Shown: positions 2,668 to 46,277, counted from the first letter of the stretch. The stretch is 64,000 nt of DNA from Planctomycetota bacterium (GCA_024280855.1 JAJRPG010000112.1:1-64000); one strand, 5' to 3'. Notes: a model not told the origin generated them from the letters alone. Translations and numbers: made by a program.

Positions 2668-2700
2668 ATATGTTACGACATATTGCGAACTCGATACGGA

Positions 2701-6424: not shown

Positions 6425-6475
6425 CCCGTTTCGCGTTCAGATTTTAGCTGGTGGATTTTGACCAGTGACCATAGA

Positions 6476-6512: not shown

Positions 6513-6644
6513 TTGTTTATCCAGCTAGGATTCTTGCCAAGGATATGGGTGGCGTCTAAGCTTGCCTGCGAAAGTTTCTGTGGCGCGGAACAACCAATTG
6601 AAACGCTGGTGTTTTGATTTGGGGAGCGCTTTGTTGGATAAATC

Positions 6645-7721: not shown

Positions 7722-7760
7722 TCTCGTGGCAATAATTATCTGTTAGCCTGGCGAAAACTA

Positions 7761-10163: not shown

Positions 10164-10207
10164 TAGCCGTCGCTTTAATTAAGTGGGCAACGGCAGGACA
10201 TTCAAAT

Positions 10208-11209: not shown

Positions 11210-11284
11210 CCAAAAAGCGGGAAATGAATGTAGCTATGACATAAACTTTATAGGATATGATTTAGCCACGGAGGTGAGATCAAC

Positions 11285-12556: not shown

Positions 12557-12581
12557 TGCATTAACGTAGCATCGCAACAGA

Positions 12582-14519: not shown

Positions 14520-14667
14520 AACTAATTAACCCTTCCCGAATAATCCTAGTCTACAAAATCGAGCCGCATGCTTCAGCTTGCGCGGAGTTTGAATCTAATT
14601 AGAACACAAAATAAACCACCAACCCGCAGCCTAGTTGTATTTATTGTGACTCTCGTCGGGAAAAGCG

Positions 14668-15849: not shown

Positions 15850-15901
15850 GTCATTACCATCCTGCCAACGCGAACATTACAGACTGACCCTACAACCACG
15901 C

Positions 15902-23364: not shown

Positions 23365-23958
23365 TCATGATGCATATCGCGGCACACGAAAGCGTTTCGT
23401 TCCCGAACGCACCTTTTGGCCCGTAACATCTTCAAACCAAGTAATGATTTCGATTTCTTTCCCAGCTATGCTTTTTGTTGCCCAACGAAGCCAGATATGA
23501 TAGCCCATCCCCAAAAATGTTGATCGGATAGTTTGAAAAGTGCTGGTGGGATACCGCCAGTCGCTAACCAATGCCCGGCCAACAGTGCCATCACTCTTGC
23601 GCTCGATGATATACATTTCAATATAAATTTCACCGTCACGCAAAATACTTTTACCAACTCCCTTCACAGTAGCTGGCTCAAGAAATACGCGATATTGAAT
23701 ACCTTCCGGGTCACGGTCACCTGCTCTATCCGTACTGATCCAGGGTTTTTGATCGTACAGGCAACGAATATGGCGAATTCTGGCATCAGATGTGTGCTTA
23801 CGTTTCCTGGGAACCTTTTCCGTCGGCCGCTTAACTTCACCTGATGATCCAGCTATCGAATACGAGGTGTCGTGCTTATCAGATGTGTGACAACCACATG
23901 TCGCTACAAGCACGACCAGCCCCATAGACACAACTGCTTTTCGCCCAAAGTTCACCAT
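23365..23958 (-). CDS. Small lipoprotein at the end of the secretion operon (hypothetical)
   Basis: From the ATG at 23958 this is a 197-residue protein starting MVNFGRKAVVSMGLVVLVATCGC, a signal peptide with lipobox-like ATCGC. The mature part is mostly beta-strand (GIQYRVFLEPATVKGVGKSIL, then YIEMYIIERKSDGTVG, then HIWLRWATKSIAGKEIEI) with no motif I recognise. I reject the longer frame starting at 24030 because it would overlap the secretin gene; the chosen start is 10 bases after the secretin stop. By position it could be a secretin-associated lipoprotein (pilotin-like role), but the sequence itself does not show that. Confidence 0.65.
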   Translation of the reverse strand: MVNFGRKAVVSMGLVVLVATCGCHTSDKHDTSYSIAGSSGEVKRPTEKVPRKRKHTSDARIRHIRCLYDQKPWISTDRAGDRDPEGIQYRVFLEPATVKGVGKSILRDGEIYIEMYIIERKSDGTVGRALVSDWRYPTSTFQTIRSTFLGMGYHIWLRWATKSIAGKEIEIITWFEDVTGQKVRSGTKRFRVPRYAS

Positions 23959-23968
23959 GAGTAAATAC

Positions 23969-26900
23969 CTATTGCTGACTGCTACGAACCAACTTTTGAC
24001 CACGAGGAAGCTTGGGGCCAAACACTGCATGCTCGACCTCTAACGCAGGCCTAGGCCTTGATATAATCGGGCCGTAAGTCTTCGTTTTTGGCCCGTATTT
24101 TTTTAGTTGTTGCTGCTTTTTGGGTGCTGGCGTATCTATATGACCACCCATAGGGCTATCTTCAGATTCAGGCCCCATGGCAGAATCTTCCGGCAAAATT
24201 CGCAGGCTCTTCATAAACGGACTCTGCTTCAACCAGTCTGGCAGGCCTACATTGTCGCGCTCTTCGATCGACATACGATGCAAATCTTCGTCGGTTCGAA
24301 GAATGTCCACTGTCATAACAATAACCAATTCCGTCTTGGATTCGCTTGTACTTACCGATCGAAACAGCGGACCAATATATGGCAAGTCGCCTAGAAACGG
24401 CACTTTATTGACACCTTCTGAAACACGCTTTTGGATTAATCCGCCAATGATGACCGTCTCGCCATCTCGAACCGTGACGTTCGTTACCACTTCACGCGTT
24501 TGGAAAATTGGCGAAGCTACGCCCTCTGTAAGTTGAATGTTTTCGCCGATGTTTGAAATTTCCTGCGTCACAGCAATTGTCACATAGCCATCCGGGCTAA
24601 TCTGCGGCGTCGCGGTCAAAACTATACCCACATCTTCTCGACCAATTGTAGATTGCGTTTGGCCTGTATCATTAAGTCGCGAAGATTCAACGATCGGCAC
24701 CTCATCTGCAATCGTGATACTGCCTTCCTGACCATTGCGAACAAGGAGCGTGGGACGCGACAGCACCTCCAACCGACTCTCCTGCTGAATCGCATGGAAT
24801 AAGAAACTAAAATCCTCACCAGTCACAGTAAAATTAAAACCGCCAAGCCCCAAACCAGCAGCGCCAATATCAGTCCCTGTAACAAAGTCGAAATCAGACC
24901 CTTGAATAATACCGTTAGGCCCAACAATGGCATTTTCTGAAAAATTTAAATCCTGACCGGCAATTTCCATGCCCAATTCAAAATCATCCGTTTGCGTGAT
25001 TTCTGCAATCACGACCGAAATCATCACTTGAGGCTCCGGCCGATCCAACTGCTGAATCATTTCCATCGTCTGCGAGTAAGCGCCACGACTCGTTCCAATG
25101 ATCAGATGGCTACTACCACCTTCATCACCGCCAATCGCTTCGATGGATATCTGGCGTTCCATGCGCCGGCGCTGGGCCTCCTCGTCAGTGATATCACCAA
25201 ACACGTCTTCTTCTTGTTGGATAAAGTTCTTATAAGCATCCGCAATCTGCGACGCCTCACGATAATCTGTTTGTATAACTTCGACCACGCGAATTTCCGC
25301 CTCTTGGGAATCAAGATATTGCACCAGCGACTCGACCATGCGCAAATCAATTTCAGCACCAGCCGCGATGAATGTATTCGTTCGCGCATCAGCCGTGAAA
25401 CGAAGGTCTTGCCCCACGCTCGCCATTTCAAATTCACCCAACTCATCGCCAAACATGAGCTGCGCTTTAAGCTCATCGCCGCCACCGCCACCATCCGTTT
25501 GGAACAATTCTTCCATGCGATCGACCATCGTCTGTGCATCGGCATTGACCAACTGAAACAATCGAAGCTCGGATCGAATCGGGCGCACCTTGTCGAAATC
25601 AAGTATCATCGACTCTAACATATCCATGCTCGAAGCCGGGGCCATGACCATCAATGAGTTTGTACGCGGGTCAGACTGAATGCGAATATCCTGACGTAGC
25701 AACTTTCGCGTTATATGAGAGCCGTCAGGTTGCTTCTCATCAAAAGTTATAATAATCGCCTCTTCGCCATCCGAACCACCCTCCTCACCAACCAGCGTTT
25801 GCTGAAGCACTTCTGCAAAATCATCAGCCAGCGCTTGACGTAGTTGAATGACCTTTACCTTCATCTCTCGTGCGGGGTTCGTCGTGTCTAGCCTCTCAAT
25901 AATTGAAGAGATGTTTTCCATCTCAGACTTAGACGCCCATACAATTAGTGCATTGATACGATCATCAGTTTCAATGGCAATCGCATCCGCTCGGCCTTGC
26001 GAGCTATCTCCCTGAGATTGAAATAAGCTCGCAAGCTTATCTGCTACCGATGTAGCCTTCGCCAGCTTTAGAGGAAATATCTGAAATTGCTTGGCTAGTG
26101 TCGAAGGCTGATCCAGCTTGTCCAACAATTCCACTATGATCTCGTGATCATCCCGTGACGCGCTACCCACCAAACTATTAGAAGACTCGTCAGCCAACAG
26201 CACCACAGGCGTGCCCGAAATTTCCTGCCCCTCACCGCGCGAGTCAAACAAATCTTGCATACGTTGAGCCAGTTTGATGGCACTACCATGCTTTAATGCA
26301 TACACCCGAATGAGAGCGGAATTAGGGCCTCCTTTAACGTCGAGTCGTGGAATAATCTCAGCGGCGCGTTCCAGTGCATCTCGTGTACCAGCCATCAACA
26401 AGGCATTACTGCGTTGATCCGCAATGACCGTTGGCGACTTGAATGATGCCGATGCGCTCTCCATACCCTGAAACAATTCGTCCAACATGCCAGCCAACAC
26501 CGTCGTGTCTGCAAAGCTAAGTTTGAAAATACGTGTCCCCTCAATCAAAGGCTGGACCTCAAGCCGCTTAATTAATCGATTGATTTCATCAAAATCCTCG
26601 ACACTCGATGCGATAATAAGCGAATTGCTACGTTCGTCAGCTACAAGGATGGGCGTATCGTCCAACAATTCACCCACTTGTCGCAGTGCCGCCTTGCGTA
26701 GCCAAAGTTCATCGATTTTCTCTTTCATATCCAGCGCCGACAATCGACCACATTTAACGATGCGCACTTGGTCAAACAACTTAGCGGGTTTGGAATCCAA
26801 TTGACGGGAAATGACTTCGATCTCTTCAAAGTTTTCTTCCGATGCAGATACAATCAACGAATTACTTCGAATATCTACCGTCAAGAAAAGCGTTTCACGA

Positions 26901-28489
26901 GCAATGGCTACTTTACCAGCTTCAGTAGCTTGAGCTGATTCCAGCCTCTGAACAAACAATTTCTTGATAATATCGCCTACTCGACTCGCGTCAGCGTATT
27001 CTAGCTGGATAAAGCGGATAGGAAACTTCAATGCCGAAGCAGGCTGATCCAACTGCCCTATCACCACCTCAGCTAACTGTAACTGTTCAGGTCGCCCCGA
27101 CACAATCAAGGTATTCGTGCGTGCGTCAGATCCAATCCCCACGTTATAAGATAGTGCTTTACCTTTATCACCCTGCGGTACAGAGTTGTTCCCACTACCA
27201 TCAGGATCCTCAGGCAATGTCTTACCATCATCAAACATACTACGCAGCACCTCACGCACAGTATCAGCATCAGCAAAGCGCAGAGGGAATAGTCGAATAT
27301 CGACTTCCTCACTAATAGCCACACCATCCAACATGCGAATGAGTTCGCTCATGGGGCCGACATTTTCTTCTACCGTCGCAATGATCAAACTGTTTGTCCC
27401 GGCATGAGCAATAATGCGCATCGGCTTACCCAAATCGATGGGCGACATATCTAAGATTGTACCATCCGGCAGCGCCTTACTAATGCTCAACCGAAATATC
27501 ACCTCAGCCGCATCAGCTTGTCCCTGCTGCGAAGCCAACAAATCCGTAATAACCGATGACATTTCCTCCGGCTTGGAATGAAGCAGCGGAAACACCGTCA
27601 GCTTCACTTCACCCCAACCCTTGGCTGGTTCTACGTCAATCGTATCAATGAAAGTTTGTATCGTTTTTCGATCTGATTCGGGCGCGATAACGAGAATCGT
27701 GTTGTTCGCATTGTTGGGGATGATTTGAATCTCGCCCTTAGGCCCCTGCGCCCCGGTCTTTTCCTTTAGCTTGCCAATAATATCCCGCAACTCATCAGCT
27801 ACGTCACTGGCCTGGCGATGCTTAATCTCAAACACCAATTGCTCATATTTTCCAAGCGAGTCCACGACTTCATCAACCTGCAAGATCGTCTGCACGGCGA
27901 ATTCGATATGTCGGGCTAACGCTGAGACTAGAATGATGTTTGACGACAATGCCGTCACCGTAACTTCATGCTCAGGACGAATGTTAGGGTCATACAATAC
28001 TTTTCGTAACGCAGGCCCCACGGTCGATGCAATATCTTTGGCATCCTTCCTCGTAACCGTAATCACACGAAGTTCAGGAACTTCTGTCTCGCCTTCCAAC
28101 ACGCTAAGCAAGGCATCAACCAAATCCAAATCTGATTGGTTTCCCTTCAAAATCAACTGCTTTCCGACCACCTCGTAATTGAGATCAGCCCCAGAAAGCT
28201 TGATATTGGTAATATCAATTCGACCTGGCGCACTTGGCTCTACTGTGTCCGTTTGTTCCACGGCCTGCTCTTGGGGGGGCGGTGCGACTTCCTGTGGTGA
28301 TTGACCAAACGCCGCGGTACTAGACAGCACGCCAAAGATGAGCGCGCACATCGACACCAGCTCTCGCCCATTGCCCATGCGCAACCGACCAGCATGCGTA
28401 AAATGCTTCACCTCTGGCCCCAGATCAACATAACAATTATTGACCCGCTGTATTGATTTCTTGCAACCCGTATGCAACTTCTTCATCAT
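23969..28489 (-). CDS. gspD: Secretin (GspD/PilQ-like) with about 12 N-domain modules
   Basis: Outer-membrane pore of the secretion machine, about 1506 residues against 650-750 for usual GspD. The C-terminal secretin domain starts about 340 residues from the end (PQVMISVVIAEIT) and ends with the family signature VPFLGDLPYIGPLFRS. Ahead of it I count about 12 NolW/N1-type modules, each of the form hydrophobic strand, LxxADAxxVxxxLxxLF helix, variable loop, then DxRTNSLIV strand and IxxLIxxLD helix. Usual GspD has three. A signal-like helix (SMCALIFGVLSSTAAFGQ) ends near residue 65 after an unusually long charged N-terminus; the start was taken at ATG 28489 (AAAGG just upstream), but a start closer to the signal is possible. 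A roughly 100-residue KKYGPKTK-rich tail follows the pore domain. Confidence 0.9.
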   Translation of the reverse strand: MMKKLHTGCKKSIQRVNNCYVDLGPEVKHFTHAGRLRMGNGRELVSMCALIFGVLSSTAAFGQSPQEVAPPPQEQAVEQTDTVEPSAPGRIDITNIKLSGADLNYEVVGKQLILKGNQSDLDLVDALLSVLEGETEVPELRVITVTRKDAKDIASTVGPALRKVLYDPNIRPEHEVTVTALSSNIILVSALARHIEFAVQTILQVDEVVDSLGKYEQLVFEIKHRQASDVADELRDIIGKLKEKTGAQGPKGEIQIIPNNANNTILVIAPESDRKTIQTFIDTIDVEPAKGWGEVKLTVFPLLHSKPEEMSSVITDLLASQQGQADAAEVIFRLSISKALPDGTILDMSPIDLGKPMRIIAHAGTNSLIIATVEENVGPMSELIRMLDGVAISEEVDIRLFPLRFADADTVREVLRSMFDDGKTLPEDPDGSGNNSVPQGDKGKALSYNVGIGSDARTNTLIVSGRPEQLQLAEVVIGQLDQPASALKFPIRFIQLEYADASRVGDIIKKLFVQRLESAQATEAGKVAIARETLFLTVDIRSNSLIVSASEENFEEIEVISRQLDSKPAKLFDQVRIVKCGRLSALDMKEKIDELWLRKAALRQVGELLDDTPILVADERSNSLIIASSVEDFDEINRLIKRLEVQPLIEGTRIFKLSFADTTVLAGMLDELFQGMESASASFKSPTVIADQRSNALLMAGTRDALERAAEIIPRLDVKGGPNSALIRVYALKHGSAIKLAQRMQDLFDSRGEGQEISGTPVVLLADESSNSLVGSASRDDHEIIVELLDKLDQPSTLAKQFQIFPLKLAKATSVADKLASLFQSQGDSSQGRADAIAIETDDRINALIVWASKSEMENISSIIERLDTTNPAREMKVKVIQLRQALADDFAEVLQQTLVGEEGGSDGEEAIIITFDEKQPDGSHITRKLLRQDIRIQSDPRTNSLMVMAPASSMDMLESMILDFDKVRPIRSELRLFQLVNADAQTMVDRMEELFQTDGGGGGDELKAQLMFGDELGEFEMASVGQDLRFTADARTNTFIAAGAEIDLRMVESLVQYLDSQEAEIRVVEVIQTDYREASQIADAYKNFIQQEEDVFGDITDEEAQRRRMERQISIEAIGGDEGGSSHLIIGTSRGAYSQTMEMIQQLDRPEPQVMISVVIAEITQTDDFELGMEIAGQDLNFSENAIVGPNGIIQGSDFDFVTGTDIGAAGLGLGGFNFTVTGEDFSFLFHAIQQESRLEVLSRPTLLVRNGQEGSITIADEVPIVESSRLNDTGQTQSTIGREDVGIVLTATPQISPDGYVTIAVTQEISNIGENIQLTEGVASPIFQTREVVTNVTVRDGETVIIGGLIQKRVSEGVNKVPFLGDLPYIGPLFRSVSTSESKTELVIVMTVDILRTDEDLHRMSIEERDNVGLPDWLKQSPFMKSLRILPEDSAMGPESEDSPMGGHIDTPAPKKQQQLKKYGPKTKTYGPIISRPRPALEVEHAVFGPKLPRGQKLVRSSQQ

Positions 28490-28615
28490 CGTTGCCTTTA
28501 CAATTATCACCGGCCGTCCTCCATGACAGCCAGTCACCTTACAAACGTAATAACACCTCTACCCTACACACAAATCAAACAAACACGCACCAAACACTCA
28601 TTCCCATTTCCAACC

Positions 28616-31600
28616 TTACCGTCTACGACTAGGCCGATTTTGAGACCCTTGTGATGATGGTCTTGAATTTCGTGAACCGCTTTGCCGTCGACCAGAATTA
28701 CTACGACCACTACGGCCAGTTCTATTACCTGACCGATTGCCTGACCGATTACCAGAACGAGCACCTGACCGACCACCTGACCGATTACGATTCGAGGTGC
28801 CTCTAAGTTGATCAATCAGCGCGATCACTTCATTCGCCGGCGTTGATCCAAGTTGTATAATTTTAATCGTCTGGCCAGTTGGTCCAAGACGTTCATACGC
28901 CTGTACCATTTGTTCAATCTCTTTGAAATGCGACGGATCACCACCTAAAAGTAGCGAATTTGTCCGCCTGTCCGCCTGAATCGAAACAGAGGAAAGTGTA
29001 TTTCGGTTCTGCCCTTTGCCTTTCGGGGCAGACGCTCTAATTCCATCATTTACACTTGTTTCCAATAGTAGCGCCAGGTCTTCTACATTAATACCCGAGG
29101 CAACTTTCACAATCTTAAACGGCGTCACGGCCGCGGCCTCTTCCGTATCCAATTTTGATACAATCGCTTCAATCGCCGTAATGTCCGCTGGCGCAGCCCT
29201 GATGATAAGACTGTTCATCAAATCATTCGATACAATAACAGGCTGAACGCGGTCACGCTGTCCGCCGCCCTTTTGATCTACAAACATTTCCTGCAACTGT
29301 GGCAAAATATATTTTACTTGTGCATATTTCAGTTTTATGATCTGCGGAACAACGCCCTTTTCACTTTCTTCATCCAACTGGTGAATTAACTGCTCGATCT
29401 GGTCAACGCGACTCGCACCGCCGCTCACCACCAAGCCATTGCTCTGGGTCAACACACTTAGGCGCGTATCCCCCACCAACTCGTCCGAGCTTGAGTTACC
29501 AGACTTCTTGAGATACTCCTGCATCGCCTGCTGAACCTCAGTCGCATCCGCATATAACAACGTAAGCACGCGAACCACTTCGCCCGTGCCCGCCTCCTCT
29601 GTATCTAACTGCTTTACGACAGCTTCAATATCTGCAAAGTCCTCCGCACTGGATTTTACCAGCACAGCCTTGGACCCACTTAACGCGGAAACAGAAATTG
29701 GCGGCGCCTGACTGCCCTGACGACTAGGCTGAGATTTAATGAAAATATCGTCTATGGTCTTAACCACCGACTCCGCATCAGCATTGCTCAGATGCACCAC
29801 ATGCACAGACTGCTGACTACTACCTTCAGTATCTAAATCTGCAATGAGAAGTTCGATCCTAGCCAGGTCCGCCTGCGAAGCTGTCACAATAACAACCCGC
29901 GCAACAGGCTCAGCCACTGCAGTCACCGGCGTCTTCGAGTTTTTACCGCCACCTCGAAACAGTTGCGTTATGGCTTCTGAAACTATGTATGGATCAGCAA
30001 ATTCCAATCTGAAAGATTTCACCTGGTCGATGCGACTCAGGGCAGTCTCTTTATCATCTAGTTGACCGATAAGCGTCTGCACCCACTCATGATTATGAGC
30101 ATTAGCCGTCACCGCTATCGATTGCGTAGCAGGCTCTTCCACCGCGAGAACCAAATCCTGCAAGGAAATTTTCTTTTTACCGCCGCTCTGCTCTTTCATG
30201 CGGGAACGTTCTTTTATGATCGTTACAACAGCACTGGGATTAGCAAACGTCAGCCCATACACCTTAGTCGTAACCGCATACTTAGCCGCGACATCAGCCT
30301 GATCCATCTTGGCGATACGCGCCCTAATGTCAGTCAGATTCGTTTCACTCGCCTCAATCACAAGCGTGTTCGTACTGCTATCAGGCGTGACGACAACCGT
30401 ATATTCATGAGGTGAAACCAATTTGCCACCGCTGATTTCCTGCATCGCTTCCTGTCGCTTATCGTAAATCGTCGTAATAAGCTCAGACGCTTCATCCGCC
30501 CGAATATGCTCTAGCACAATGGTTTCAGTCGTTAGCTGAGGAGCGATGTTATCTTCTAATGGATCGATAAAATCTTTTTTGATTTGATCAACTTGCTTTT
30601 GCGTGCCTCGAACAATCAGCACGTTCAGCGAAGCATTCGCTTCTATAATAGGTGGGTCTTCACCAGCCACCCCCACAGCCCCGCTCCACAAACGGGTGAT
30701 GTTACTCGCCACCTCTTTCGCATCTGAATTTTTCAAAGCGATCATATAAAAACCAGGAGGCTGTTCTACGTTTTCTGGTGTATCGATTCGCTGCAAGGCA
30801 TGTTCAACGAAGCCAAAAATCAAAGGACCACCTAGTACAACAATCGCATTCGCCTGGTCATCCACCTCAGCCCCGAAAGCATCCATCTGATCGCCCGGAG
30901 CCAGCCCCTTAACATAATCACCCATCAACTTATTTAACGTATCGTAAATGCGGCGTGCGTTGGCGTGCTTCAACCGAAATACGCGAAACTCCGCTTGAAA
31001 CTCACGCGGCTTATCCAACAATTTTACCAGAGACTCAATTTCCAAAAACATCTCGTCGTCGGTCATCACCAACAACTGCTTCGAATTGTCATCACCCGTC
31101 ACCGTAAACGCCGGCACTGCGCTCCCCGAATCCCGGCCCGATGGGGCATAAGCCTTCGTAATCGCTTGCGCCACTTCGCTCGGTCGCGCGTGTTCGAGCG
31201 TAATCATGCGCAACGAAGCTCGCTCCTGAGCCTCGGCTTCTAATTGCTTGACGGTTTCAAGAATTCTTTCCTGCAAATACTCAGGTGCGCTATAAAAAAC
31301 CATGCGCCCACCATCTTGTCCAATGAATCGCGTCTTAGCGGTGCTGGAAGTTTTTGACTCTTTCTTGCTCCGCCTTTTGGTTCCCTGGGTTAGATTCACG
31401 CCTTGAAAAATAGAGGTGAGCGTCTCAGCTACCATCATCGCATCGGCGTGCGCCAGATGGATAACCTCAAAATCTGCCTGGGCAGGCTTGTCGAATCCCG
31501 CGATCAATTCAGCCACTTCTTCATGCTGCTTAGCCGTTCCCTGAACGGAAAGAATTTTCAGCGGTACATAACCAATAAACGTAGGAGAATTCAAACTATC

Positions 31601-34600
31601 CGTAGACCCAAACGACGCAGCGTCACCATCGTCTTTGCCACGTCGTCCACCGGAATTCTTCTCATCCCCACCGCCGTATCGACCTTGCAAATAAGTCAGC
31701 AAAGACGGAACAGATGCATGTACCAATTCGTATTGCACCCAGGTGCGATCAACGCTCTCATTACTTTCCAAATCCTTGATTAGCTCACCAATAAAGTCCA
31801 ACGCAGCCACAGGGCCAAGCGCCATGATCGAATTGTTTCGCGGGCTACTCGTCAGCTTAATATCCTTGGGGTCAATACCCAACATATCCCCAGCCATAGT
31901 CTTCTGCATAATTGGCTTAGGGAACTGACCACCGCTGCCGCCACTACTACGAGATGTTGTCGAAGCATTACCACGACGAGCGCCACCACTTTTAGGACGA
32001 GGCGACTCCGTTCGCGCACTCGTAGCTGACATGCCCAACCAATCTTTCAAAAGCATTTCAACTTCAGAGGCATTAAGCTTATCCAACGGATACACACGCA
32101 TCTCGCTATTGATCGGGCGAGGCTGATCCACCGTAGACAGGAGCTTCAAGATAGCTGGGTATTGATTCGTATCAGCCCGCAATATCAGTGAACGATCGCG
32201 GGGATTCGGCATCACCCGCACCGACGTCGGCGGCAACTGAGGTGCCGCTACGGGTTTATTATTCTGCTGCTGAGGCTGGCGTTTGTTTCCTTGTTGCTGC
32301 TTCTGCTGTTGTTGCTGCTGACGAGCCCGTTGCTGCTGCTGTTGCTGTGCCCGCGATACCTGCTGACGCTGCTGCCGCGTCGCATTGAACATCTCATTGA
32401 TAATGTCAGTCGCTCGATACACATCGATATATTTAACACGATAAATACGAATATCCGGCGGGCGAGGCAGGTCTTTCATTTCCTCTTCTAATTCATCCAG
32501 CCAATCCGGTATCTCCTCCAGAACCGATCGCGGAGCCACAACAATCATGCCACCGCTTGATTCGTCATACTTAATAATAACCTTCTCAGCCGAGGCAGCC
32601 TTCTTGGTTTTACTTGGCATGCGCTCCTTCGTTATCACCACATCATCATGACCTTCTCGTGGCTGCTCGTTAAGTAGCGCACGAGCTTTATCACGCACGA
32701 TATCTGATAAAGCATCTTGATCGCCCGATGTCGCAGAACGCTGTGGAGGTGAAGGCTTAGCGATTGGTTTCTTCTCGTCAGCCGCGGCTGGCACATCACC
32801 CTCAGACTGTTCATCCGATTGCCCTAAAGCTGTCAAGCTCAACCCTTGCAACGCAGCCGAAAAGGCCAATGGCATTACACATCGATTCACAGCACTCGTT
32901 CGTGGCCCAAGCTGCTGCACACCTGACGACTGATCCTCTTGTGGCGACATATCCTCAATTTCAATATCCAACTCCGGATGATTAATCTTCATCCATATCG
33001 CGACATCTTTAGGGCTAATCCCTGCAGGCACGGCAAAAGCCTTAGGGCGGCTGCGAGCGAGCTTGCTTTCTATGTCCACATACTCACGAATCAAATCTTT
33101 AATTTCATCAAAGCGATCACGATGCGGATACCGCACAATCAACATGTCACCAAAAGAAGCATAGTCCACATGGGGAAGCTCATCGCTAGGCTCCCAAAGT
33201 GCTGACAATACGCCATCCAATGCATACGAGGCATCATAAGCATCAACGTGCTCTAACATGTAAGTAAATTTTGGAACCGGCGCAGGATTGATTAACTCCT
33301 CCGATTCAGATGTGTCAAACTTAGAGATAATGCGATCAACTTCCGTCAGCTTAGCCGGACTTGCCGAGACAATCAGCGTGTGGTCAATCAAATCAGCCCG
33401 CAGATAAAGATCATCCGTCGTCCGCGTAATCGTCGTCACAAAAGCTTCATCTTCGGCCTCGTCATCGATCGCAGCTAACATCTGCCTTGCACCACCCGCT
33501 TTGGGACGAGCTTTCCCACCAGGTCGTCTCGCACCAGCACGCCTAGCCGGTACTGACACCGTATTTACAATAATGTCCACCAACATTTTCATGTCGATAT
33601 GCTTGATCTGAAAAATCTTCAAATTACGCGCGCCGCCCGCGATACTATCCAGATGCGAAATCCATTCCTTAGCCTTAGCCACAAGCTTCACAGGCCCTTG
33701 AAGAACCACAGCCGCTCCGCCTGGCGCTTCCACAATTTGGAACTCGCCTGACAACGTCGCAGACCTAACCGGTGCCTTGAGCTTTCCCCCACCAGGCCGC
33801 TTACGCGAACCGCCGCCCATGAGCGCCTGAATGGAACCAACCATCTCACTGGCGTCAGCGTTTTGCAAGGTAATCGTCTCAAACGCAGATGACTCGTCAC
33901 CGGCTTTATCGAACAACTCAATCAACCCGCGGGCTTCTTCAATAATCACCCTCGGCGCAGCTAACACAATCTGACCGTTACGATCATCAGCTTGCATATG
34001 ATACCGATCAGGCTGCGAAGAACTCTTCTTGCGAGGAATTGTAATCTTGCCGGCGCGTTTCCCTTTCTTCACTGACACCGAGCCTTCCTCACCAGAAAGC
34101 GAACCAGCCTTCACCAACTGCTGCACTTTCATGTCCAACAGCGGGGCAATTTGCTCAACGATTTCACTAGGCTCCACAAACTGCACAGCCATCGTGACAA
34201 CTTCAACCTCGTCACCGCTGTCTACTGGCAGATCAAACTGCGTAATCAACAAACGCGCTTCTTCAATCACCGACTCCGGAGCCGCGAGTACCAATCGGCG
34301 ATTTCGCTCATCAGCTACTAAATGAAAACGCTCAACATCCGACTTGGCCGAACGACCCGCAATACGCAGGCCCGGCTTCTTGCCCGCACTCGGCTTCAAC
34401 GCTTCGGCATCACTAGCTAATCCGCCTGCACTCACCAACTGCTGCACCTTCAGCGACAGCAATGGCTCAATTAGTTCAATCAACTCAACCGGATCAGCAT
34501 GTTCAATTTTAATAAAGACCGTCTGTATCTCATCCCCATCGGAGCGCGTATCAAACGACGCGATTAGCTTTCGCGCCTCAACCACAATAGGCTCAGCCGC

Positions 34601-37600
34601 AGCCACCACAATCCGATGGTTCCGGGCATCAGGTAACAACTGATAAAGATCGCCACTACCCGCAGGCTTAGATTTTTTATTCTTACCACCTATGCGAAGT
34701 CCGGGGGTACTCTTAGTTGCACCCACCTCTTTAATCACGCCTGTCAAAACCAAATGCTGCACCTTGATCGAAAGCAAAGGCTCAATTAATTCAACAATCT
34801 GCTCAGGGTCGGCGTGAGTCACATCAACATACTCAACCAACACTTCATCAATCTCTTCCGTAGGACGAAGGATATCCAGCAGCTTCTCAATCTCAGCAAA
34901 CTTCTCAGGCTCCGCAACAACAATCAACTTGCCCGACGAAGGCTGAGGTAAAAACTGTGCCTCCTCAGGAGAAGCCGTACCCTTCTTAATCGTCTTTGGT
35001 TTAGCAGCTGGCCCACCATCCTTGGATGACATCAGCGATTGCAACGATTCTGAAAGCGCAACCACATCCGTTCCCGGCGGGAAATCGTCATACACGCGAA
35101 TCTCGCGTTGATCGCGCGCCACATCAAATTCTAAAATCAGCGATGCGACCTCTTCCATCTGCTCAGGAGACGTGCGCACAATGAGACGATTATCAAGCTG
35201 AATAATTTTCAACTTGCCGTCCTCACTACCGCCCTTTGCCAGCGTCCCAGGCCTGGGCTTACCCCGCGTAGTTTTTTTCACGCTATTGGTCAGCAGAGAA
35301 TCAATCGTCGCCATCATGTCCGCCGCTTCACGATGCTTAATCACGAAAACGCGCTGCACAATTCCATCAGGCTGGTCGAACTGCGCCAGCAATCGCTTAA
35401 TAAGCGAAACCTCGCTATCCTTCGCCCCGATGACCACCATGCCACCGTCCGTCGTTTCATAACGAATGCCGCTCTTCTTCGCAGCCAAACCTTTCTTCGC
35501 ACCGCCGCCGCCAGCAATCAAAGCCGACACTTTTTCAATGGCTAATTCTGGTGAAATATGCTCAACAGCAATCACCACAAACTCAGCCGATTGCGAAAGC
35601 TGTTCAAGCTCTTCAATCACCGACTTATATTCTGTCCATTCCTCATCATTGCACAAAACATACAAACGCCCACCAGCATCGTCAGACGTAAACTTACCCT
35701 TCGTATTACCTTTACCCCCAGCCCGCTTCGGCCGAACAGGACGCTTAGGCCCGGTACTTGTTCCCGCCCGAGATGATTCATATTCCTGCAGAATGCTAGC
35801 CACAAATGATGGAAGCTGATTTTTCAATTGCACAATATGAAGCTCAACCACTTCACCAGCCACATCAAGCTCAACCAGCAGCAACTTCACTAACTCCAAA
35901 TCGTCTGGCGAACCCGTAAAGTAAATTGCATCACCATCTGGAGAAGCTACCACTTCCGATTGCATCTCGCTTGGCCTGACGGATTTCTTATTAGTTTTCT
36001 TGGTTGACCCACCAATCAGTTTGGAAATAGTCCCGACAATATCTTCAGCCTCGGCATGTTTTAACACTAATCGAATAGGGCCAACTTCTGTTTCTATATC
36101 AAAAGATTCAATAAGCTGACGCACACGGGCAACGTCCTTATCCGAGGCCATCACAATAATCGCCCGCGACACAGGATGCGTAATCAACCGTATTTTATCA
36201 ATCGTAGCCGACTTCCCGCCAGGCTTTTTACCGCGCGACGTAGGCCTTTTCGGCTTGGTTACAGCACCAGCCGGCGTCAAAATATCTTGCAATGTGACCA
36301 CCAAAGCGTCAGGGTCAGCATACTTCACCTCAATCACGATAGGACGAAAATCTGTATTCGTATCCACATCAACGTAAGGTAACAACAGCTTGATCTCTTC
36401 AATCTTATTGCGCATACCCCGCACGATAAGCACGCCCTGCCCATCAGCTGGCACCACGCTAAGTGCCGGCGCTTGGACACCATCCAACGTGCCCTTATTA
36501 CCACCTCGTGGTGTGCGCGCCCTCGGACGCGCCGTAGGCCCATCCAAATCCATCAACTCTTGCAGCTTCTCATATGCTACCGAAGGGGGAATATGAACCA
36601 CTTTGATAACCTCCAGCGTGCGAGGGTCTTGCCCCTGTGGAGAAACCAAAATAGGAACCAAATCCAGATACTTGCGAATGTCACTCGCCAGCGCAAATAT
36701 CGCCACCGTATTAGAGTTCTCCAGCGGCGTCACCCGAACATAATCCGGCATGAAATCACGAACAATCGTCAAGTCCGACAGCGAACCAGACTTTGGCGTA
36801 TACAACACCAACACCAGTTCCTCATCCGCAAGTTTCGCAGCCTGAAAATCCGACACGCTACGATACATCATCTCCGGTTCCAGCTCACGCAAATAATCAT
36901 TTACGCGAATCACCTCAAGGTGTGTGTCTCGCCTCAACATCCAATAAGGCTCTAATGGCTTATAATTAAACAGCAGCATACGAATGCGCTTGAGCAAATC
37001 TGCAAACGAAAGCTCTTCTTCAGTCACAAAGCTCACCCGACCATCCGGAGGCTTCACTCCCACAACACCAAGACCAGTCTCCCGCGCAACCATCTCAATC
37101 AAATCTTCATAAGTTCCGTCCACGATGCTAAACTGATACTTACCCTCTTCCGGCGAAACAGATGAAAACGTGGGCGGGATATTAATCGATGTGTCTTTAG
37201 CCGATGAACCACCTCGACCAGCAGGCTTAGCCACTTTGACCTTGCCATCACGAGATGAGGGCTTGCGCGTCGCACCAGCCGCGCGAGATTCTTTGTGCTT
37301 ACGCTGACGTTCTTTCATCTCCTCGCGTCGCTGCATCGCCCGCTCTTTCGCCGTCATTTTCGACTTATCTTTTTTCTCGGCAGGCTTAGCCACAGGCTCA
37401 ATCGTCACTGCCCCCTTCGGAATTACAGCCTTAGTCTTTCGGCTGCGCTGCGGACTTCCACGACGCGGCGTAGTCTTACGAGACTTATTTGGCATTTCCT
37501 GAGGAGTGGGCGATTTAACTGGCGCCCCTTTCTTCGCAGGTGTCTGCCCAACCGAAGCCATGGGAAAAAGAAACGGCACAAACAGCACCACCATATACCA

Positions 37601-37672
37601 AACAAGCCGGCGCGCTTGCACCAAGCCAGTAGTCTTCAATCGTTTATCTTGTATCTGCGGATGATTCATCAT
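28616..37672 (-). CDS. Giant exported protein of about 28 tandem secretin N-domain modules, no pore domain
   Basis: A 3018-residue protein with a signal peptide (WYMVVLFVPFLFPMASVGQ, residues about 25-44), a Lys/Arg-rich linker (45-175), an N0/STN-like domain (about 180-265, EDLIEMVARETGLGVVGV), then about 28 NolW/N1-type modules of 70-110 residues. Each has the pattern strand-LxHADA-helix, a basic or Gly-rich loop, then a LIV strand and a helix ending in LD. Around residues 1593-1616 a second hydrophobic, signal-like stretch (VMPLAFSAALQGLSLTALGQ) suggests a fusion of two ancestral genes. A Gln-rich loop lies near 1766-1804 and a basic SGNR-repeat tail after 2957. No secretin pore domain is present. 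It sits 21 bases after the PilO-like gene and before the secretin, so it is likely a periplasmic scaffold or extension of that machine. GAGGAAG precedes the start. Confidence 0.88.
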   Translation of the reverse strand: MMNHPQIQDKRLKTTGLVQARRLVWYMVVLFVPFLFPMASVGQTPAKKGAPVKSPTPQEMPNKSRKTTPRRGSPQRSRKTKAVIPKGAVTIEPVAKPAEKKDKSKMTAKERAMQRREEMKERQRKHKESRAAGATRKPSSRDGKVKVAKPAGRGGSSAKDTSINIPPTFSSVSPEEGKYQFSIVDGTYEDLIEMVARETGLGVVGVKPPDGRVSFVTEEELSFADLLKRIRMLLFNYKPLEPYWMLRRDTHLEVIRVNDYLRELEPEMMYRSVSDFQAAKLADEELVLVLYTPKSGSLSDLTIVRDFMPDYVRVTPLENSNTVAIFALASDIRKYLDLVPILVSPQGQDPRTLEVIKVVHIPPSVAYEKLQELMDLDGPTARPRARTPRGGNKGTLDGVQAPALSVVPADGQGVLIVRGMRNKIEEIKLLLPYVDVDTNTDFRPIVIEVKYADPDALVVTLQDILTPAGAVTKPKRPTSRGKKPGGKSATIDKIRLITHPVSRAIIVMASDKDVARVRQLIESFDIETEVGPIRLVLKHAEAEDIVGTISKLIGGSTKKTNKKSVRPSEMQSEVVASPDGDAIYFTGSPDDLELVKLLLVELDVAGEVVELHIVQLKNQLPSFVASILQEYESSRAGTSTGPKRPVRPKRAGGKGNTKGKFTSDDAGGRLYVLCNDEEWTEYKSVIEELEQLSQSAEFVVIAVEHISPELAIEKVSALIAGGGGAKKGLAAKKSGIRYETTDGGMVVIGAKDSEVSLIKRLLAQFDQPDGIVQRVFVIKHREAADMMATIDSLLTNSVKKTTRGKPRPGTLAKGGSEDGKLKIIQLDNRLIVRTSPEQMEEVASLILEFDVARDQREIRVYDDFPPGTDVVALSESLQSLMSSKDGGPAAKPKTIKKGTASPEEAQFLPQPSSGKLIVVAEPEKFAEIEKLLDILRPTEEIDEVLVEYVDVTHADPEQIVELIEPLLSIKVQHLVLTGVIKEVGATKSTPGLRIGGKNKKSKPAGSGDLYQLLPDARNHRIVVAAAEPIVVEARKLIASFDTRSDGDEIQTVFIKIEHADPVELIELIEPLLSLKVQQLVSAGGLASDAEALKPSAGKKPGLRIAGRSAKSDVERFHLVADERNRRLVLAAPESVIEEARLLITQFDLPVDSGDEVEVVTMAVQFVEPSEIVEQIAPLLDMKVQQLVKAGSLSGEEGSVSVKKGKRAGKITIPRKKSSSQPDRYHMQADDRNGQIVLAAPRVIIEEARGLIELFDKAGDESSAFETITLQNADASEMVGSIQALMGGGSRKRPGGGKLKAPVRSATLSGEFQIVEAPGGAAVVLQGPVKLVAKAKEWISHLDSIAGGARNLKIFQIKHIDMKMLVDIIVNTVSVPARRAGARRPGGKARPKAGGARQMLAAIDDEAEDEAFVTTITRTTDDLYLRADLIDHTLIVSASPAKLTEVDRIISKFDTSESEELINPAPVPKFTYMLEHVDAYDASYALDGVLSALWEPSDELPHVDYASFGDMLIVRYPHRDRFDEIKDLIREYVDIESKLARSRPKAFAVPAGISPKDVAIWMKINHPELDIEIEDMSPQEDQSSGVQQLGPRTSAVNRCVMPLAFSAALQGLSLTALGQSDEQSEGDVPAAADEKKPIAKPSPPQRSATSGDQDALSDIVRDKARALLNEQPREGHDDVVITKERMPSKTKKAASAEKVIIKYDESSGGMIVVAPRSVLEEIPDWLDELEEEMKDLPRPPDIRIYRVKYIDVYRATDIINEMFNATRQQRQQVSRAQQQQQQRARQQQQQQKQQQGNKRQPQQQNNKPVAAPQLPPTSVRVMPNPRDRSLILRADTNQYPAILKLLSTVDQPRPINSEMRVYPLDKLNASEVEMLLKDWLGMSATSARTESPRPKSGGARRGNASTTSRSSGGSGGQFPKPIMQKTMAGDMLGIDPKDIKLTSSPRNNSIMALGPVAALDFIGELIKDLESNESVDRTWVQYELVHASVPSLLTYLQGRYGGGDEKNSGGRRGKDDGDAASFGSTDSLNSPTFIGYVPLKILSVQGTAKQHEEVAELIAGFDKPAQADFEVIHLAHADAMMVAETLTSIFQGVNLTQGTKRRSKKESKTSSTAKTRFIGQDGGRMVFYSAPEYLQERILETVKQLEAEAQERASLRMITLEHARPSEVAQAITKAYAPSGRDSGSAVPAFTVTGDDNSKQLLVMTDDEMFLEIESLVKLLDKPREFQAEFRVFRLKHANARRIYDTLNKLMGDYVKGLAPGDQMDAFGAEVDDQANAIVVLGGPLIFGFVEHALQRIDTPENVEQPPGFYMIALKNSDAKEVASNITRLWSGAVGVAGEDPPIIEANASLNVLIVRGTQKQVDQIKKDFIDPLEDNIAPQLTTETIVLEHIRADEASELITTIYDKRQEAMQEISGGKLVSPHEYTVVVTPDSSTNTLVIEASETNLTDIRARIAKMDQADVAAKYAVTTKVYGLTFANPSAVVTIIKERSRMKEQSGGKKKISLQDLVLAVEEPATQSIAVTANAHNHEWVQTLIGQLDDKETALSRIDQVKSFRLEFADPYIVSEAITQLFRGGGKNSKTPVTAVAEPVARVVIVTASQADLARIELLIADLDTEGSSQQSVHVVHLSNADAESVVKTIDDIFIKSQPSRQGSQAPPISVSALSGSKAVLVKSSAEDFADIEAVVKQLDTEEAGTGEVVRVLTLLYADATEVQQAMQEYLKKSGNSSSDELVGDTRLSVLTQSNGLVVSGGASRVDQIEQLIHQLDEESEKGVVPQIIKLKYAQVKYILPQLQEMFVDQKGGGQRDRVQPVIVSNDLMNSLIIRAAPADITAIEAIVSKLDTEEAAAVTPFKIVKVASGINVEDLALLLETSVNDGIRASAPKGKGQNRNTLSSVSIQADRRTNSLLLGGDPSHFKEIEQMVQAYERLGPTGQTIKIIQLGSTPANEVIALIDQLRGTSNRNRSGGRSGARSGNRSGNRSGNRTGRSGRSNSGRRQSGSRNSRPSSQGSQNRPSRRR
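28676..28800. repeat. Degenerate short tandem repeats coding the SGNR tail
   Basis: Within the 3' end of the giant gene, 12-15-base units related to CTGACCGATTGC and CTGACCGATTAC repeat several times, encoding Ser-Gly-Asn-Arg-rich peptides on the minus strand. Replication slippage probably expands and shrinks this tail. Confidence 0.7.
32270..32375. repeat. CTG/TTG-rich microsatellite-like run coding poly-Gln
   Basis: The plus strand shows runs of TGCTGTTGTTGCTGCTG type; on the coding minus strand they encode a loop dominated by Gln (about 30 of 45 residues) inside one N-domain module of the giant protein. The loop is tolerated because this position is variable in all modules. Confidence 0.75.
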
Positions 37673-37693: not shown

Positions 37694-39475
37694 TTACCGC
37701 CTGCCTCGCTTATTCCTAAATTTCTTCGATCGACGACCCCGATTCGGGCTTTGCTTTACATAAGGCGGTCTTTTCTTCACTGTTGTCGCTTGCGGCTTTT
37801 CAACTTCTCTAGCCTCAGCCTCTTCGCGAGTCTTATTAGGCACAGCCGCTGGCCTGACAGCCTTAACCGGCGTAGGCTTAACCTCACCGACTTTATCAGG
37901 CACAACCTTCGGCGATTTACCCGGAATCTGCCCCGACGCTTCACCCCGACGCACACCCTGTTGTACCGGCGCGGGCTGGATTGGTTTCGCAGACTCAACA
38001 GGCTTCACGTCCGGAGTAGACGGGACCACCGCCTTACCATCCTTAGCTACATCACCAGCCGCAGGCGTCTTATTACCCTTAGCATCTTCAAGCGAATCCT
38101 CATCAGGAGTTCCTGGCTTAGCCTCAACCGGCACCTCAACAGGAACGACCTCCGCTGCTTTTTCCTCAGTTAGAATCTGCTCGGCCAAATTTTGAAAACG
38201 TGGATAATCTGAAGCATCCGCGATTTGTACGCTATCACTTATCGTCGACCCGACCGGATATACATAAAACTCATCTTCCCAACGAACCAATGCCGCACGT
38301 GGGTGAACAAAAATCAATGTGCCCCCGTCAAGCTCATCACCCGTCGCGTAATAAGAGCGCTCTCGCCGCTTGGAATTGTAAATCTGTATTTCACCAGAAC
38401 GTTCCTGCACCCGACTACGCACCAACGCCACCTGAATCTTCATCTGCTTACCGTCAGGCCAACGCTTGCGCCGATTCACCACTGGTGCTGGAGGCGTTGG
38501 TGGCGGAGGCTTGACGGGTGTCGGATTCTTAACCACACGCTCAGGAGGTTTCTCTTTGACATCTACCGTCACCTGCGCCGTCGAAACATGACCACTATTG
38601 TCCGATACCTCGAGCGCATATTGAAACGAGCCCACTTTCGACGTATTGATCGTAGGTCGATTTGTATCCCCAGCCGACAAGCCAGGATCACCCGACCACT
38701 CAAATCGATACTTTCCATCCCCACCCCTGGCACTACCACTAAGGGTCAATTTCTTACCCACGAAAACAGACTGATTTTTACCCGCTATCGCAATCAACGG
38801 ATCATAAGGAACAAATTCCGTAAACGGCGTCCGTGTCCAAATTGATGAATAATCGCGCCCGCTATGACGAACCACCTTTTCAGGCTGATCCAACTTGGCG
38901 TCCACAACCTTCTCACCAAGCATCTTATGCTGTGGCAACACCCACACCTCAATCGGAACCCGAAGGTTCACATACTCACGATCAACCTTCTTTTTGCCTC
39001 GACGTGACGAACTCTTTGGAAATATGGAAACATTGCCCACCCGCACCAACTGCGGCAACTCACTCAAGTCTTTAAGAAAAGACGTCACCGAAGTCAGCGA
39101 ACCCTCCGCATTGATCGTAAGCGACATCTTAGTGACACCCGTTTTACGATCTGGATGAGGCTTAGTCGGCGTCGTAGTTGCCTGGTCAAGCTTGTGCGTA
39201 GCAAAAAGATCATTCAACCGCTGACGGATGGCATTCTCTACCTTGCCCACATCCCCCGACCCGATACGATCCATCAAACGACGATACTCACGCACCGCCC
39301 ACTCAGCTTTTTCCTGCTTCTCTTCAAGCTTATCAAGCTCTATCTCGCGCTTTGCAATACGATCCCCCAGCGTTACCAATGGCTCGACATACCACGGATA
39401 AAACGTCTTGGATACCATGATAAACAATACCATCGTACCAAACACACCAGCCAGGATTTTCGTTTTCTTATCCAT
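37694..39475 (-). CDS. PilO/GspM-like protein fused to PKD and PilP-like domains
   Basis: About 593 residues. An N-terminal inner-membrane helix (ILAGVFGTMVLFIMVSKTF, about 8-25) is followed by a coiled coil (45-85) and a PilO-type ferredoxin-like domain (about 95-190, NAEGSLTSVTSFLKDLSELPQL). Residues about 225-310 form a PKD domain (LTLSGSARGGDGKYRFEWSGD, then YALEVSDNSG). Residues about 340-415 resemble PilP or the GspC homology region (GEIQIYNSKR, ATGDELDGGTLIFVHPRAALVRW, EFYVYPVGS), the part that in known systems contacts the secretin N0 domain. A long Pro/Lys-rich tail ends in a cluster of Arg and Lys. Start taken at ATG 39475; the frame continues to TTG at 39499. It would join inner-membrane platform and secretin in a single chain. 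Confidence 0.7.
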   Translation of the reverse strand: MDKKTKILAGVFGTMVLFIMVSKTFYPWYVEPLVTLGDRIAKREIELDKLEEKQEKAEWAVREYRRLMDRIGSGDVGKVENAIRQRLNDLFATHKLDQATTTPTKPHPDRKTGVTKMSLTINAEGSLTSVTSFLKDLSELPQLVRVGNVSIFPKSSSRRGKKKVDREYVNLRVPIEVWVLPQHKMLGEKVVDAKLDQPEKVVRHSGRDYSSIWTRTPFTEFVPYDPLIAIAGKNQSVFVGKKLTLSGSARGGDGKYRFEWSGDPGLSAGDTNRPTINTSKVGSFQYALEVSDNSGHVSTAQVTVDVKEKPPERVVKNPTPVKPPPPTPPAPVVNRRKRWPDGKQMKIQVALVRSRVQERSGEIQIYNSKRRERSYYATGDELDGGTLIFVHPRAALVRWEDEFYVYPVGSTISDSVQIADASDYPRFQNLAEQILTEEKAAEVVPVEVPVEAKPGTPDEDSLEDAKGNKTPAAGDVAKDGKAVVPSTPDVKPVESAKPIQPAPVQQGVRRGEASGQIPGKSPKVVPDKVGEVKPTPVKAVRPAAVPNKTREEAEAREVEKPQATTVKKRPPYVKQSPNRGRRSKKFRNKRGRR

Positions 39476-39538
39476 CAATACCCAAAAACTTTTACTCAAT
39501 CATTTCACTGCGTGGCATAATGTGTGATGGGTGGCATG

Positions 39539-39617: not shown

Positions 39618-41243
39618 TCAACTAACACCCTTACGATGCTTCTTGCCACTCTTCTTGGTCGACACAATCTCTATGCGTATATCCTGAGCAAAAGGATAGC
39701 TCTCCTTCAAATTAGGAGACTGAGAACCCATACTCGCCCGCAATCGCCAATCACCTTGTTCAGGAACAAACGCATGAAGACTTTTTATCAACTCAGTGGG
39801 CGTCGAACGTTTTTTACAACGGGTCCTAAATACAATCTGTGCATGCTCGCCAGTCTTAGCCCCAACCTTAATCTGCTTCAAATCTATGCGATCAAAAATC
39901 ATTTCCTCGTTCGTAGGAAAAACCGACACCACATCAACCAGCACATCCACCCACACGCGCTGGCTCTCATCAAAATCATCCAACACGCCATGTAGTTTTA
40001 GAAATTTCTTGTTGGCGCTGCGTTGACCCTTCAATTCAGTGATTTGCTCATTCAAACTAGCTAGCCGAGCGCGATCAGACGCCGTGAATTTCACGACCCC
40101 CATCACGCTAGCCACGATAAACAGCACCGCGACAGCCGCGATCATCGGCGCTTTCTTCAAACGCTTTCGCGCAGCTGATTCCGTTTTCTTAGGATGCAAA
40201 AAGTCAAAATGAAACTGGTCGTCACTCGCATCCGAAAGGATCAAACCCATCACAGCCGCAAACGCCGCCGCGTTCGCCCCCTCATCAGGCTCCCAACCAA
40301 ACGTCCGCGCAGGGTTATACATTTCAGTCGTGACGTGCAACCGAGCTTGAATCGCATCAGACAGCAGCGACTCCATTCCCGTATCACCCGCAATCACCAC
40401 ATGATCAATCTCAGCTCCGGCGTCCGACGCACGATAAGCCTCAATCGACCGCGTCACTTCCATCAGTAGAGCCACCATCGCTGTAGCACACGCAGGTTGA
40501 GTTTCAGCATCCGTAAATTTTAGTGTCGCATCAGCCACGTTATTCGCCGGCAACGAAGCAGGACCATCAACCGGACATGCCCCCGTCAAATCCTCGCCCT
40601 CAGACATCGCCACCGACGCCGCCCGCGAGAACACCAACGACCCCTCACGCAACACAGATATTTCCATAAACGTCGGGCGGACATCAATAAACAACACCAA
40701 ATGAGGCATCGCATGTTGCAGCAGTTCACAAACAGCCACCTTATTCGCATACGGACGAAGACCGACCCGCTCCAGTTTCAAATCCGCAGCCGCAAATATC
40801 GCCTCATACTGCGACAACACCTCACGACGAATCGCAGCCACTAACACATCTGAAGAAGTGCCGCCATCAACCGGCAACCCCACCGTATAGTCCACAGCCG
40901 CGTCCATAACCGGAAACGGCAATTCCTTGGCAATCTGAATTTTGACCATGCCCGGCAATTCTTCTGGAACCGTCGTGGGAAGTGTTAGCGTATTAAGTAC
41001 CACTTGATCGCGCGGAATGTCCACAGCCGCATGTTTAGTCGTAATCCCCTCTTGATCCAACGCCTGACGAATATGTGCCCCAAACTGTTGCGGATCATTA
41101 GGGTCCACGCTGGTGGGAATAGCCACGTTGATTAGCCGGTCAATCTTAACGCCTCGATTAGAAACCAACGCATGCGCAATCCGCAGCGTCCGCGTATCCC
41201 AATCAATCGCCAAAATCTTCCTTTTTCCCCGTCTAGCGGCCAC
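39618..41243 (-). CDS. PilM-PilN fusion protein (GspL-like)
   Basis: 541 residues. Residues 10-345 form an actin-like PilM/GspL cytoplasmic domain (KILAIDWDTRTLRIAHAL, VDIPRDQVVLNTLTLP, GMVKIQIAKELPFPVMDA, then VVIAGDTGMESLLSDAI). A single inner-membrane helix lies near 361-384 (APMIAAVAVLFIVASVMGVV), followed by a coiled coil and a PilN-type periplasmic domain (IVFRTRCKKRSTPTELIKSL). This is the topology of GspL and of a natural PilM+PilN fusion. I set the start at GTG 41243, preceded by AAGGAG with 7-base spacing and overlapping the gspK stop by 11 bases; an ATG-type start at 41267 is possible but has a worse context. Confidence 0.82.
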   Translation of the reverse strand: MAARRGKRKILAIDWDTRTLRIAHALVSNRGVKIDRLINVAIPTSVDPNDPQQFGAHIRQALDQEGITTKHAAVDIPRDQVVLNTLTLPTTVPEELPGMVKIQIAKELPFPVMDAAVDYTVGLPVDGGTSSDVLVAAIRREVLSQYEAIFAAADLKLERVGLRPYANKVAVCELLQHAMPHLVLFIDVRPTFMEISVLREGSLVFSRAASVAMSEGEDLTGACPVDGPASLPANNVADATLKFTDAETQPACATAMVALLMEVTRSIEAYRASDAGAEIDHVVIAGDTGMESLLSDAIQARLHVTTEMYNPARTFGWEPDEGANAAAFAAVMGLILSDASDDQFHFDFLHPKKTESAARKRLKKAPMIAAVAVLFIVASVMGVVKFTASDRARLASLNEQITELKGQRSANKKFLKLHGVLDDFDESQRVWVDVLVDVVSVFPTNEEMIFDRIDLKQIKVGAKTGEHAQIVFRTRCKKRSTPTELIKSLHAFVPEQGDWRLRASMGSQSPNLKESYPFAQDIRIEIVSTKKSGKKHRKGVS

Positions 41244-45815: not shown

Positions 45816-46277
45816 CTATTTTTCCAGCCAGTTCTTGACGTCGTCGCTGCTTGCTTTGCCGTCATTGTTTGAGCGGTCAGGCCCCCAACTCCATAAATCG
45901 AAGCCATCTTCGTTCATGTCACCTGGCGAACGAAACTCGTACGGGTTGCCCCAAGGATCAAGCAATTCTTCGTACGCACCTTCCATGTATGGGCCATTGT
46001 AGTTATCACTATCAGCTTGCCCCTTAGGCACAAACAAAGCTTGCAGCCCTTCATCTGAATCGGGATAACGACCGATGTCCCATTTGTAGGATTTTAACCC
46101 CTTAGCTATGGGGCCATTGCGCCCAATGCCAGCCCTGGCAAGATCAATGTTTACCTTCTGAGCGGTTCCCATGAGGGACGGAATGGCAAAGGCCGCAAGC
46201 ACTGCTAAGATGCCAGCTACCAAGAGCAATTCAATAAGCGTAAATCCATGTCGTCTTCTTCGTGTCCTGCGTTGCAT
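45816..46277 (-). CDS. gspG: Type II secretion major pseudopilin GspG
   Basis: 153 residues, the usual GspG size. The leader MQRRTRRRRHG is followed by FTLIELLLVAGILAVLAAFAIPSL, with Glu5. The C-terminal GspG signature is present: KSYKWDIGRYPDSDEGLQAL, LLDPWGNPYEFRSPG and DLWSWGPDRSNND, the last forming the calcium-binding loop of GspG. GGAGAT precedes the ATG. It should form the pseudopilus shaft. A 70-base gap separates it from gspF. Confidence 0.93.
   Translation of the reverse strand: MQRRTRRRRHGFTLIELLLVAGILAVLAAFAIPSLMGTAQKVNIDLARAGIGRNGPIAKGLKSYKWDIGRYPDSDEGLQALFVPKGQADSDNYNGPYMEGAYEELLDPWGNPYEFRSPGDMNEDGFDLWSWGPDRSNNDGKASSDDVKNWLEK

Follow-up and report, generated by a model that had tools for sequence, protein, structure and literature searches.

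How long can a secretin become, and can one secretin be shared between two genes? The question is raised by a 64,000-nucleotide stretch of DNA from a Planctomycetota bacterium (GCA_024280855.1 JAJRPG010000112.1:1-64000, hereafter the window), part of a 112-contig genome assembly, in which a secretin gene, D, lies beside the gene for a giant partner, G. Canonical GspD, the secretin of the type II secretion system (T2SS), carries three N1-type modules. We propose, with a probability of about 60%, that G and D together constitute a single giant GspD-type T2SS secretin, made as two exported chains that are coupled through a split N-module and arranged as stacked rings. The proposal draws on domain order, module number, complementary half modules, fusion in relatives, membership of one clade and the operon, all of them read from sequences or models.

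Two adjacent chains with about 42 N-modules

D was placed at 23969..28489 of the window; G, D and the other genes of the operon all lie on the minus strand. The D open reading frame (ORF) extends to a GTG at 28537 (23969-28537, 1,522 amino acids [aa]), but the ATG-ATG start at 28489 was preferred because the same methionine pair is present in two congeneric genomes. Pfam Secretin_N matched D with 362 bits in 11 passing stretches. A local hidden Markov model (HMM), built from the N-modules themselves and iterated over relatives, resolved 12 complete N1-type modules (aa 156-1168; 25034..28072), preceded by the C-terminal half of a further module. The first six modules span aa 156-222, 235-304, 314-404, 414-499, 507-584 and 590-663, and the remaining six span aa 668-735, 743-812, 817-885, 894-983, 991-1078 and 1084-1168. 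An AlphaFold2 model of D, computed from 16 sequences (D and 15 relatives; mean predicted local distance difference test [pLDDT] score of 69.6), likewise contained a beta-beta-alpha half followed by 12 beta-alpha-beta-beta-alpha units. The modelled modules matched N domains in the solved structures of GspD and XcpQ, with Z scores of 10-11 for the best solved N-domain matches and a best Z of 10.9 over 69 aa (root-mean-square deviation [rmsd], 1.7). With the same local HMM, mostly 2-5 modules were counted in relatives that do not belong to the giant clade (among them Armatimonadota and Deltaproteobacteria), which puts the number in D far above chance.

The modules are followed by one C-terminal Secretin domain (aa 1249-1414; 24296..24793), which was recognized by PF00263 (152 bits, E 1.3e-44) and matched PDB entry 6i1x (E 3.2e-42). 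The nearest PDB matches of this pore were T2SS GspD structures, all of them 15-mer entries, with E values down to 3e-42. A first-pass annotation of D from its sequence had described about 12 N1-type modules ahead of a normal secretin pore, and both claims were borne out, with 11-12 N-domains counted by the three methods and not only three or four. N0 is absent from D, which opens instead with the beta-beta-alpha half module.

G adjoins D directly upstream (28616..37672; 3,018 aa). It contains 22 Pfam Secretin_N stretches and, by the local HMM, about 29 N1-type modules, made up of a weak first module, a run at aa 353-2925 and an internal joint; Pfam finds no pore in it. Many of these modules are weak, divergent matches with long disordered loops. 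An N0 domain was located at aa 178-255 (36908..37141), at the N terminus of G, as it is in fused relatives. An iterated profile seeded by this domain reached the N0 domains of ordinary GspD-type secretins with E values of 1e-14 to 1e-26, and of 16 domains homologous to it, 8 matched PF21305 (gspD_N0) and 3 matched STN in Pfam. The copy in G gave no Pfam match when searched alone, and its profile gave no match among PDB sequences. Both G and D begin with a signal peptide, as judged by eye. Taken along both chains, the order is N0, 29 modules, 1 shared module, 12 modules and the pore, or about 42 N1-type modules in total, and one pair weighs about 496 kDa (G, 329.5 kDa; D, 166.5 kDa). Linkers between modules are mostly 2-7 aa along both chains, the exceptions being the joint and one linker of 10 aa.

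In families f4 and f8, which belong to the order of the host, a single ORF of 4,144-4,890 aa covers both G and D, and this holds for single-contig assemblies too; elsewhere in the class, single-ORF giants of 3,303-5,073 aa are found. A reading in which D, with its 12 N-modules, is complete as a secretin and G is a distinct periplasmic partner would suit the two genes and two signal peptides of the host genome. However, D lacks N0 and opens with a half module, its counterpart is fused to that of G in many relatives, and these fused relatives place the joint inside one module, so that we regard this explanation as very improbable. The first-pass annotation had assigned the giant partner to the same machine, with which the single ORF of the relatives agrees. 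Its portrayal of D as a complete, 12-module secretin did not hold, since N0 and about 29 modules sit in G.

One N-module split between two chains

The two chains meet within a module. The first half of this joint module (beta1-alpha1; HMM positions 2-28) lies at the C terminus of G (aa 2933-2959; 28796..28876) and is followed by a basic tail rich in R, G, S and N. The second half (beta2-beta3-alpha2; HMM positions 46-72) lies near the mature N terminus of D (aa 114-150; 28088..28198), where the order is signal peptide, linker and then half module, and it was modelled by AlphaFold2 as beta-beta-alpha. When the G and D halves were joined in silico, they scored 22.1 bits over HMM positions 2-73. 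The same complementary arrangement is found again in those genomes of the host's order that have G and D split, and joined halves scored 16-42 bits across the whole module in all 10 of 10 genomes; since these relatives also served to train the scoring HMM, the scores show completeness and are not independent proof.

In the fused ORFs of f4 and f8, the two halves of the joint are separated by about 75-340 aa. One such region, 476 aa of the fused ORF L108, was modelled with AlphaFold2 from an alignment of 8 sequences. The halves were predicted with pLDDT of about 72-78 (mean for the region, 64), most of the insert fell below 45, and the predicted template modelling score was 0.27. Model residues 165..393, which include both halves with about 165 residues between them, superposed on a single solved N1 domain (VIA-align), namely that of EscC (3gr5; 63 aa, rmsd 2.2), PilQ (6ve4; 59 aa, rmsd 2.0) or InvG (4g08; 63 aa, rmsd 2.3). 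This superposition supports a joint made of one shared module, short of proof. In the mitochondrial T2SS, a Secretin_N domain is divided, GspDN2 corresponding to its C-terminal and GspDN3 to its N-terminal half (PMC8134430), and this independent mid-module cut makes the joint between G and D more believable.

A second joint, designated A/B, lies within G (aa 1542-1732; 32477..33049). Here a half module (aa 1542-1574) is separated from its second half (aa 1696-1732) by an insert of about 120 aa, which contains a signal-peptide-like remnant, NRCVMPLAF...ALGQ (aa 1596-1618). In genomes G024 and G031 the giant is encoded by two genes that are cut at this type of place, and in family f1 the A/B halves are connected through an insert bearing a conserved CVLP...GQ segment.

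Signal-peptide-like segments also occur at the joints in the fused ORFs of G030, G034, G038, L108 and L094, which suggests that the giant may be made or matured as a polyprotein. In this variant of the two-chain proposal, signal peptidase would cut the joint segments, the chains would always be nicked, and the gene split would have made the nicking permanent. Several of the segments outscore most shuffled sequences and they are clear in the G030/G038/L108 group, but they score below most true N-terminal signal peptides, are weak, degenerate or absent in L104, G039, L089 and G012, and may instead be remnants of once-separate genes. A signal-peptide remnant at every joint was accordingly rejected, as good scores against shuffles were obtained for some joints only, and maturation as a polyprotein appears unlikely. 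Similar segments were seen in two single-ORF giants of other Phycisphaerae. In L110 (ORF 1799-16210) the segment lies at aa ~2122, directly ahead of a stretch resembling a half module, and in L102 (ORF 2725-15234) it lies at aa ~1686, midway along the giant.

Relatives and neighbouring genes

A match to D was present in 40 of the 40 genomes searched and was weaker only in G010 and G037, and the total number of N-modules ranged from 29 to 69 across relatives. The largest case, in genome G028, was the pair L066/L067, whose proteins of 5,021 and 1,800 aa together hold about 69 N-modules. In a quick tree search the giants formed one Planctomycetota clade with a Shimodaira-Hasegawa-like approximate likelihood ratio (SH-aLRT) of 100, and the nearest sampled sister was Armatimonadota, with 3-5 modules. 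Nearly all named members of the giant clade were Phycisphaerae or unspecified planctomycetes; the exceptions were a single record that bears the title Planctomycetia and a Thermoguttaceae sequence with about 8 modules. The genomes with separate G and D grouped together inside a fused background (support, 91), in a tree that used only the last modules and the pore and in which some sequences marked as split are contig-edge fragments. The G|D fission thus appears to be derived, having arisen once, after the giant. The apparent split of L085 was discarded as an N-gap in its assembly.

Modules of the host and of G012 formed 34 of 34 reciprocal best pairs in the same order, and 29 of 30 pairs were in order with G022. 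By sequence, the modules are old, co-linear orthologues within the family, and recent tandem duplication received no support there as their source. In other families and orders, this co-linearity becomes weaker. The suggestion in the first-pass annotation that length was built by module duplication may hold for the deep past.

The phylum was also surveyed with PF03958, with up to 23 candidates scored per genome, so that the resulting counts are lower bounds. Planctomycetia were found to encode proteins with N0 and N-modules that have no pore. Three such proteins, of 1,186-2,701 aa (L162, 4774-12876; L163, 4809-9353; L174, 4733-8290; all on the minus strand), come from genomes G173, G184 and G146, outside the class of the host; at their C termini they, too, have a half module and a tail rich in G, R and S. 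Long secretins encoded in these three genomes (L213, L214 and L164) are without N0. A matching half module was expected at their start, but those read open with whole modules, and for this reason a joint of the G|D type was not extended to Planctomycetia. Split secretins may nevertheless be common across the phylum. A further divergent secretin of 1,372-1,728 aa (L207-L212) occurs in these distant planctomycete genomes; its N-terminal region is long, and almost no N-modules can be recognized in the protein.

T2SS pseudopilin and platform genes are encoded alongside G and D. Upstream of G lie a GspM/PilO-like inner-membrane protein with a PKD domain and a C-terminal domain conserved in alignment (37694..39499; T2SSM_b, E 2e-4), a PilM/GspL-like assembly-platform protein (39618..41267; PilM_2, E 1.4e-25) and a GspK-like minor pseudopilin (41233..43005; T2SSK families), and these L, K and M neighbours are retained next to the giant in relatives. 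They are followed by a GspJ-like pseudopilin (43002-43952; T2SSJ, E 0.0016), a probable GspI (43949-44932), which had no Pfam match and was assigned from its N-terminal motif and gene order, a GspH-like protein (44945-45730; N_methyl, E 8e-5), the major pseudopilin GspG (45816..46277; T2SSG, E 3.4e-21) and the inner-membrane platform protein GspF (46348..47550; T2SSF, E 3.8e-51). The conserved C-terminal domain of the GspM/PilO-like protein is a possible N0-binding HR domain. Its resemblance to the HR domain of GspC/PilP is convincing by eye, but with no match in Pfam or the PDB it is a guess. Directly after D lies a small probable lipoprotein (23365..24030, minus strand), which belongs to no Pfam family, has a lipobox-like N terminus in many orthologues and is kept at this position in most relatives; it could be the pilotin of the giant secretin.

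Farther along the window, adjacent GatE-like (GatB_N with a GAD domain) and GatD-like (asparaginase with GatD_N) genes were found at 49514-52878; this type of amidotransferase is usually described from archaea. A run of four Ser/Thr protein kinase genes occupies positions 52979-63460; WD40-like repeats are present in two of the products and tetratricopeptide repeats in the other two.

A stack of rings or a tether

In the proposed machine, the outer part, with the pore in the outer membrane and the 12 N-modules next to it, would come from D, and the inner part, with about 29 modules and, closest to the platform in the inner membrane, N0, would come from G. With the chains in register, beta1-alpha1 of G and beta2-beta3-alpha2 of D would form one N-module that is complete only when both chains are present. 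We infer heteromeric assembly of this kind, with the halves pairing in the periplasm, as well as a ring for every module, the length and the T2SS function. Should the modules form rings in the manner of GspD and PilQ, a 15-fold stack of ~43 rings and about 7.4 MDa would arise, and pseudopili built by the products of the GspF-M operon would act at its base. Such a stack would span roughly 100-150 nm of periplasm, an estimate that follows from about 43 rings at a few nanometres each, given the six rings and 350 Å of Thermus thermophilus PilQ (PMC5745081). A stiff, full stack is favoured because the linkers are so short; a stack longer than 100 nm is plausible, and is preferred without being secure.

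Several observations weigh against this assembly. A periplasmic stack of 100-150 nm is without precedent, the longest in the literature searched being that of Thermus PilQ, at 35 nm (PMC5745081). In the one planctomycete studied by tomography, the periplasm can be very wide, but crateriform structures are located where the inner membrane is near the wall (PMC5394234), which would argue against a very long straight stack if the machine belongs to such structures. The operon has no linked GspE, GspE-family genes lying elsewhere in the genome, and no GspC was recognized, the HR-like domain of the GspM/PilO-like protein having no profile or PDB match. Finally, the Z score of the L108 joint, ~7.4, is in a range that possibly reflects only a common arrangement, and it comes from a model of moderate confidence and a shallow alignment.

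The main rival to a stiff stack keeps G and D as one machine but forms rings only near the pore (and at N0), the other modules serving as a tether or ruler, flexible or coiled, by which the two membranes stay linked as the width of the periplasm varies. The unprecedented length implied by stacking every module, the weak and divergent modules of G with their disordered loops, and the variable invagination of planctomycete membranes (PMC5394234) are all consistent with such a tether. In contrast, the uniformly short linkers suit rigid stacking, and across the family the modules have kept both their sequence and their order; a partly ringed tether is the less probable reading. The proposal in its widest form, in which secretins are built end to end from 2-3 chains via reciprocal half-domains, 30-70 stacked rings make up the longest known periplasmic channel, and the fused joints are cut by signal peptidase, is possible, although we lean against it.

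By fold, domain order and gene context, G and D together remain a secretin. Like the 15-mer GspD proteins (PulD, XcpQ and EpsD), they have N0 first, then N1-type modules and a C-terminal pore, beside a pseudopilin operon, and the pore sequence is closest to GspD; they differ in having about 42 N1-type modules rather than 3 and in their two chains, joined inside a module. T. thermophilus PilQ, a 13-mer with six stacked rings, N0-N5 (PMC5745081), likewise has a lengthened stack of N-modules, described as crossing a wide periplasm, but has 6 rings rather than about 43, a single chain and type IV pilus genes in place of a T2SS set. Pfam found no AMIN match in D or G, and the neighbours include GspK and pseudopilins, which sets them apart from PilQ.

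Other secretins are divided between genes. The rhizobial-type type III secretion system (T3SS) has RhcC1 and RhcC2 (PMC3574062), an N-terminal gene and a C-terminal, pore-bearing one, a likeness to G and D in layout; it is a T3SS without a giant module array, and the part of that article available describes no mid-module joint. The mitochondrial T2SS secretin is split into several chains, GspD and GspDN1-3 (PMC8134430), but it is a reduced eukaryotic system without N0, with one to few modules and with no pairing of halves shown. Neither a planctomycete secretin that is giant or has tens of N-modules nor conserved complementary half modules joining two chains of one secretin were found in the CC-licensed PubMed Central literature, where absence of the former is no proof.

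G and D represent an extreme of the secretin family: GspD has 3 N-modules and Thermus PilQ six rings, whereas this pair carries about 42 modules and one relative as many as about 69. Should the units stack in the manner of known relatives, this would be by far the longest channel of the secretin kind. The family offers a test, readable from sequence, of whether module number sets periplasmic reach, and one domain common to two chains is a proposed way of lengthening a ring stack over several polypeptides. The envelope machines of planctomycetes are poorly known, and G and D provide a defined two-gene target among them.

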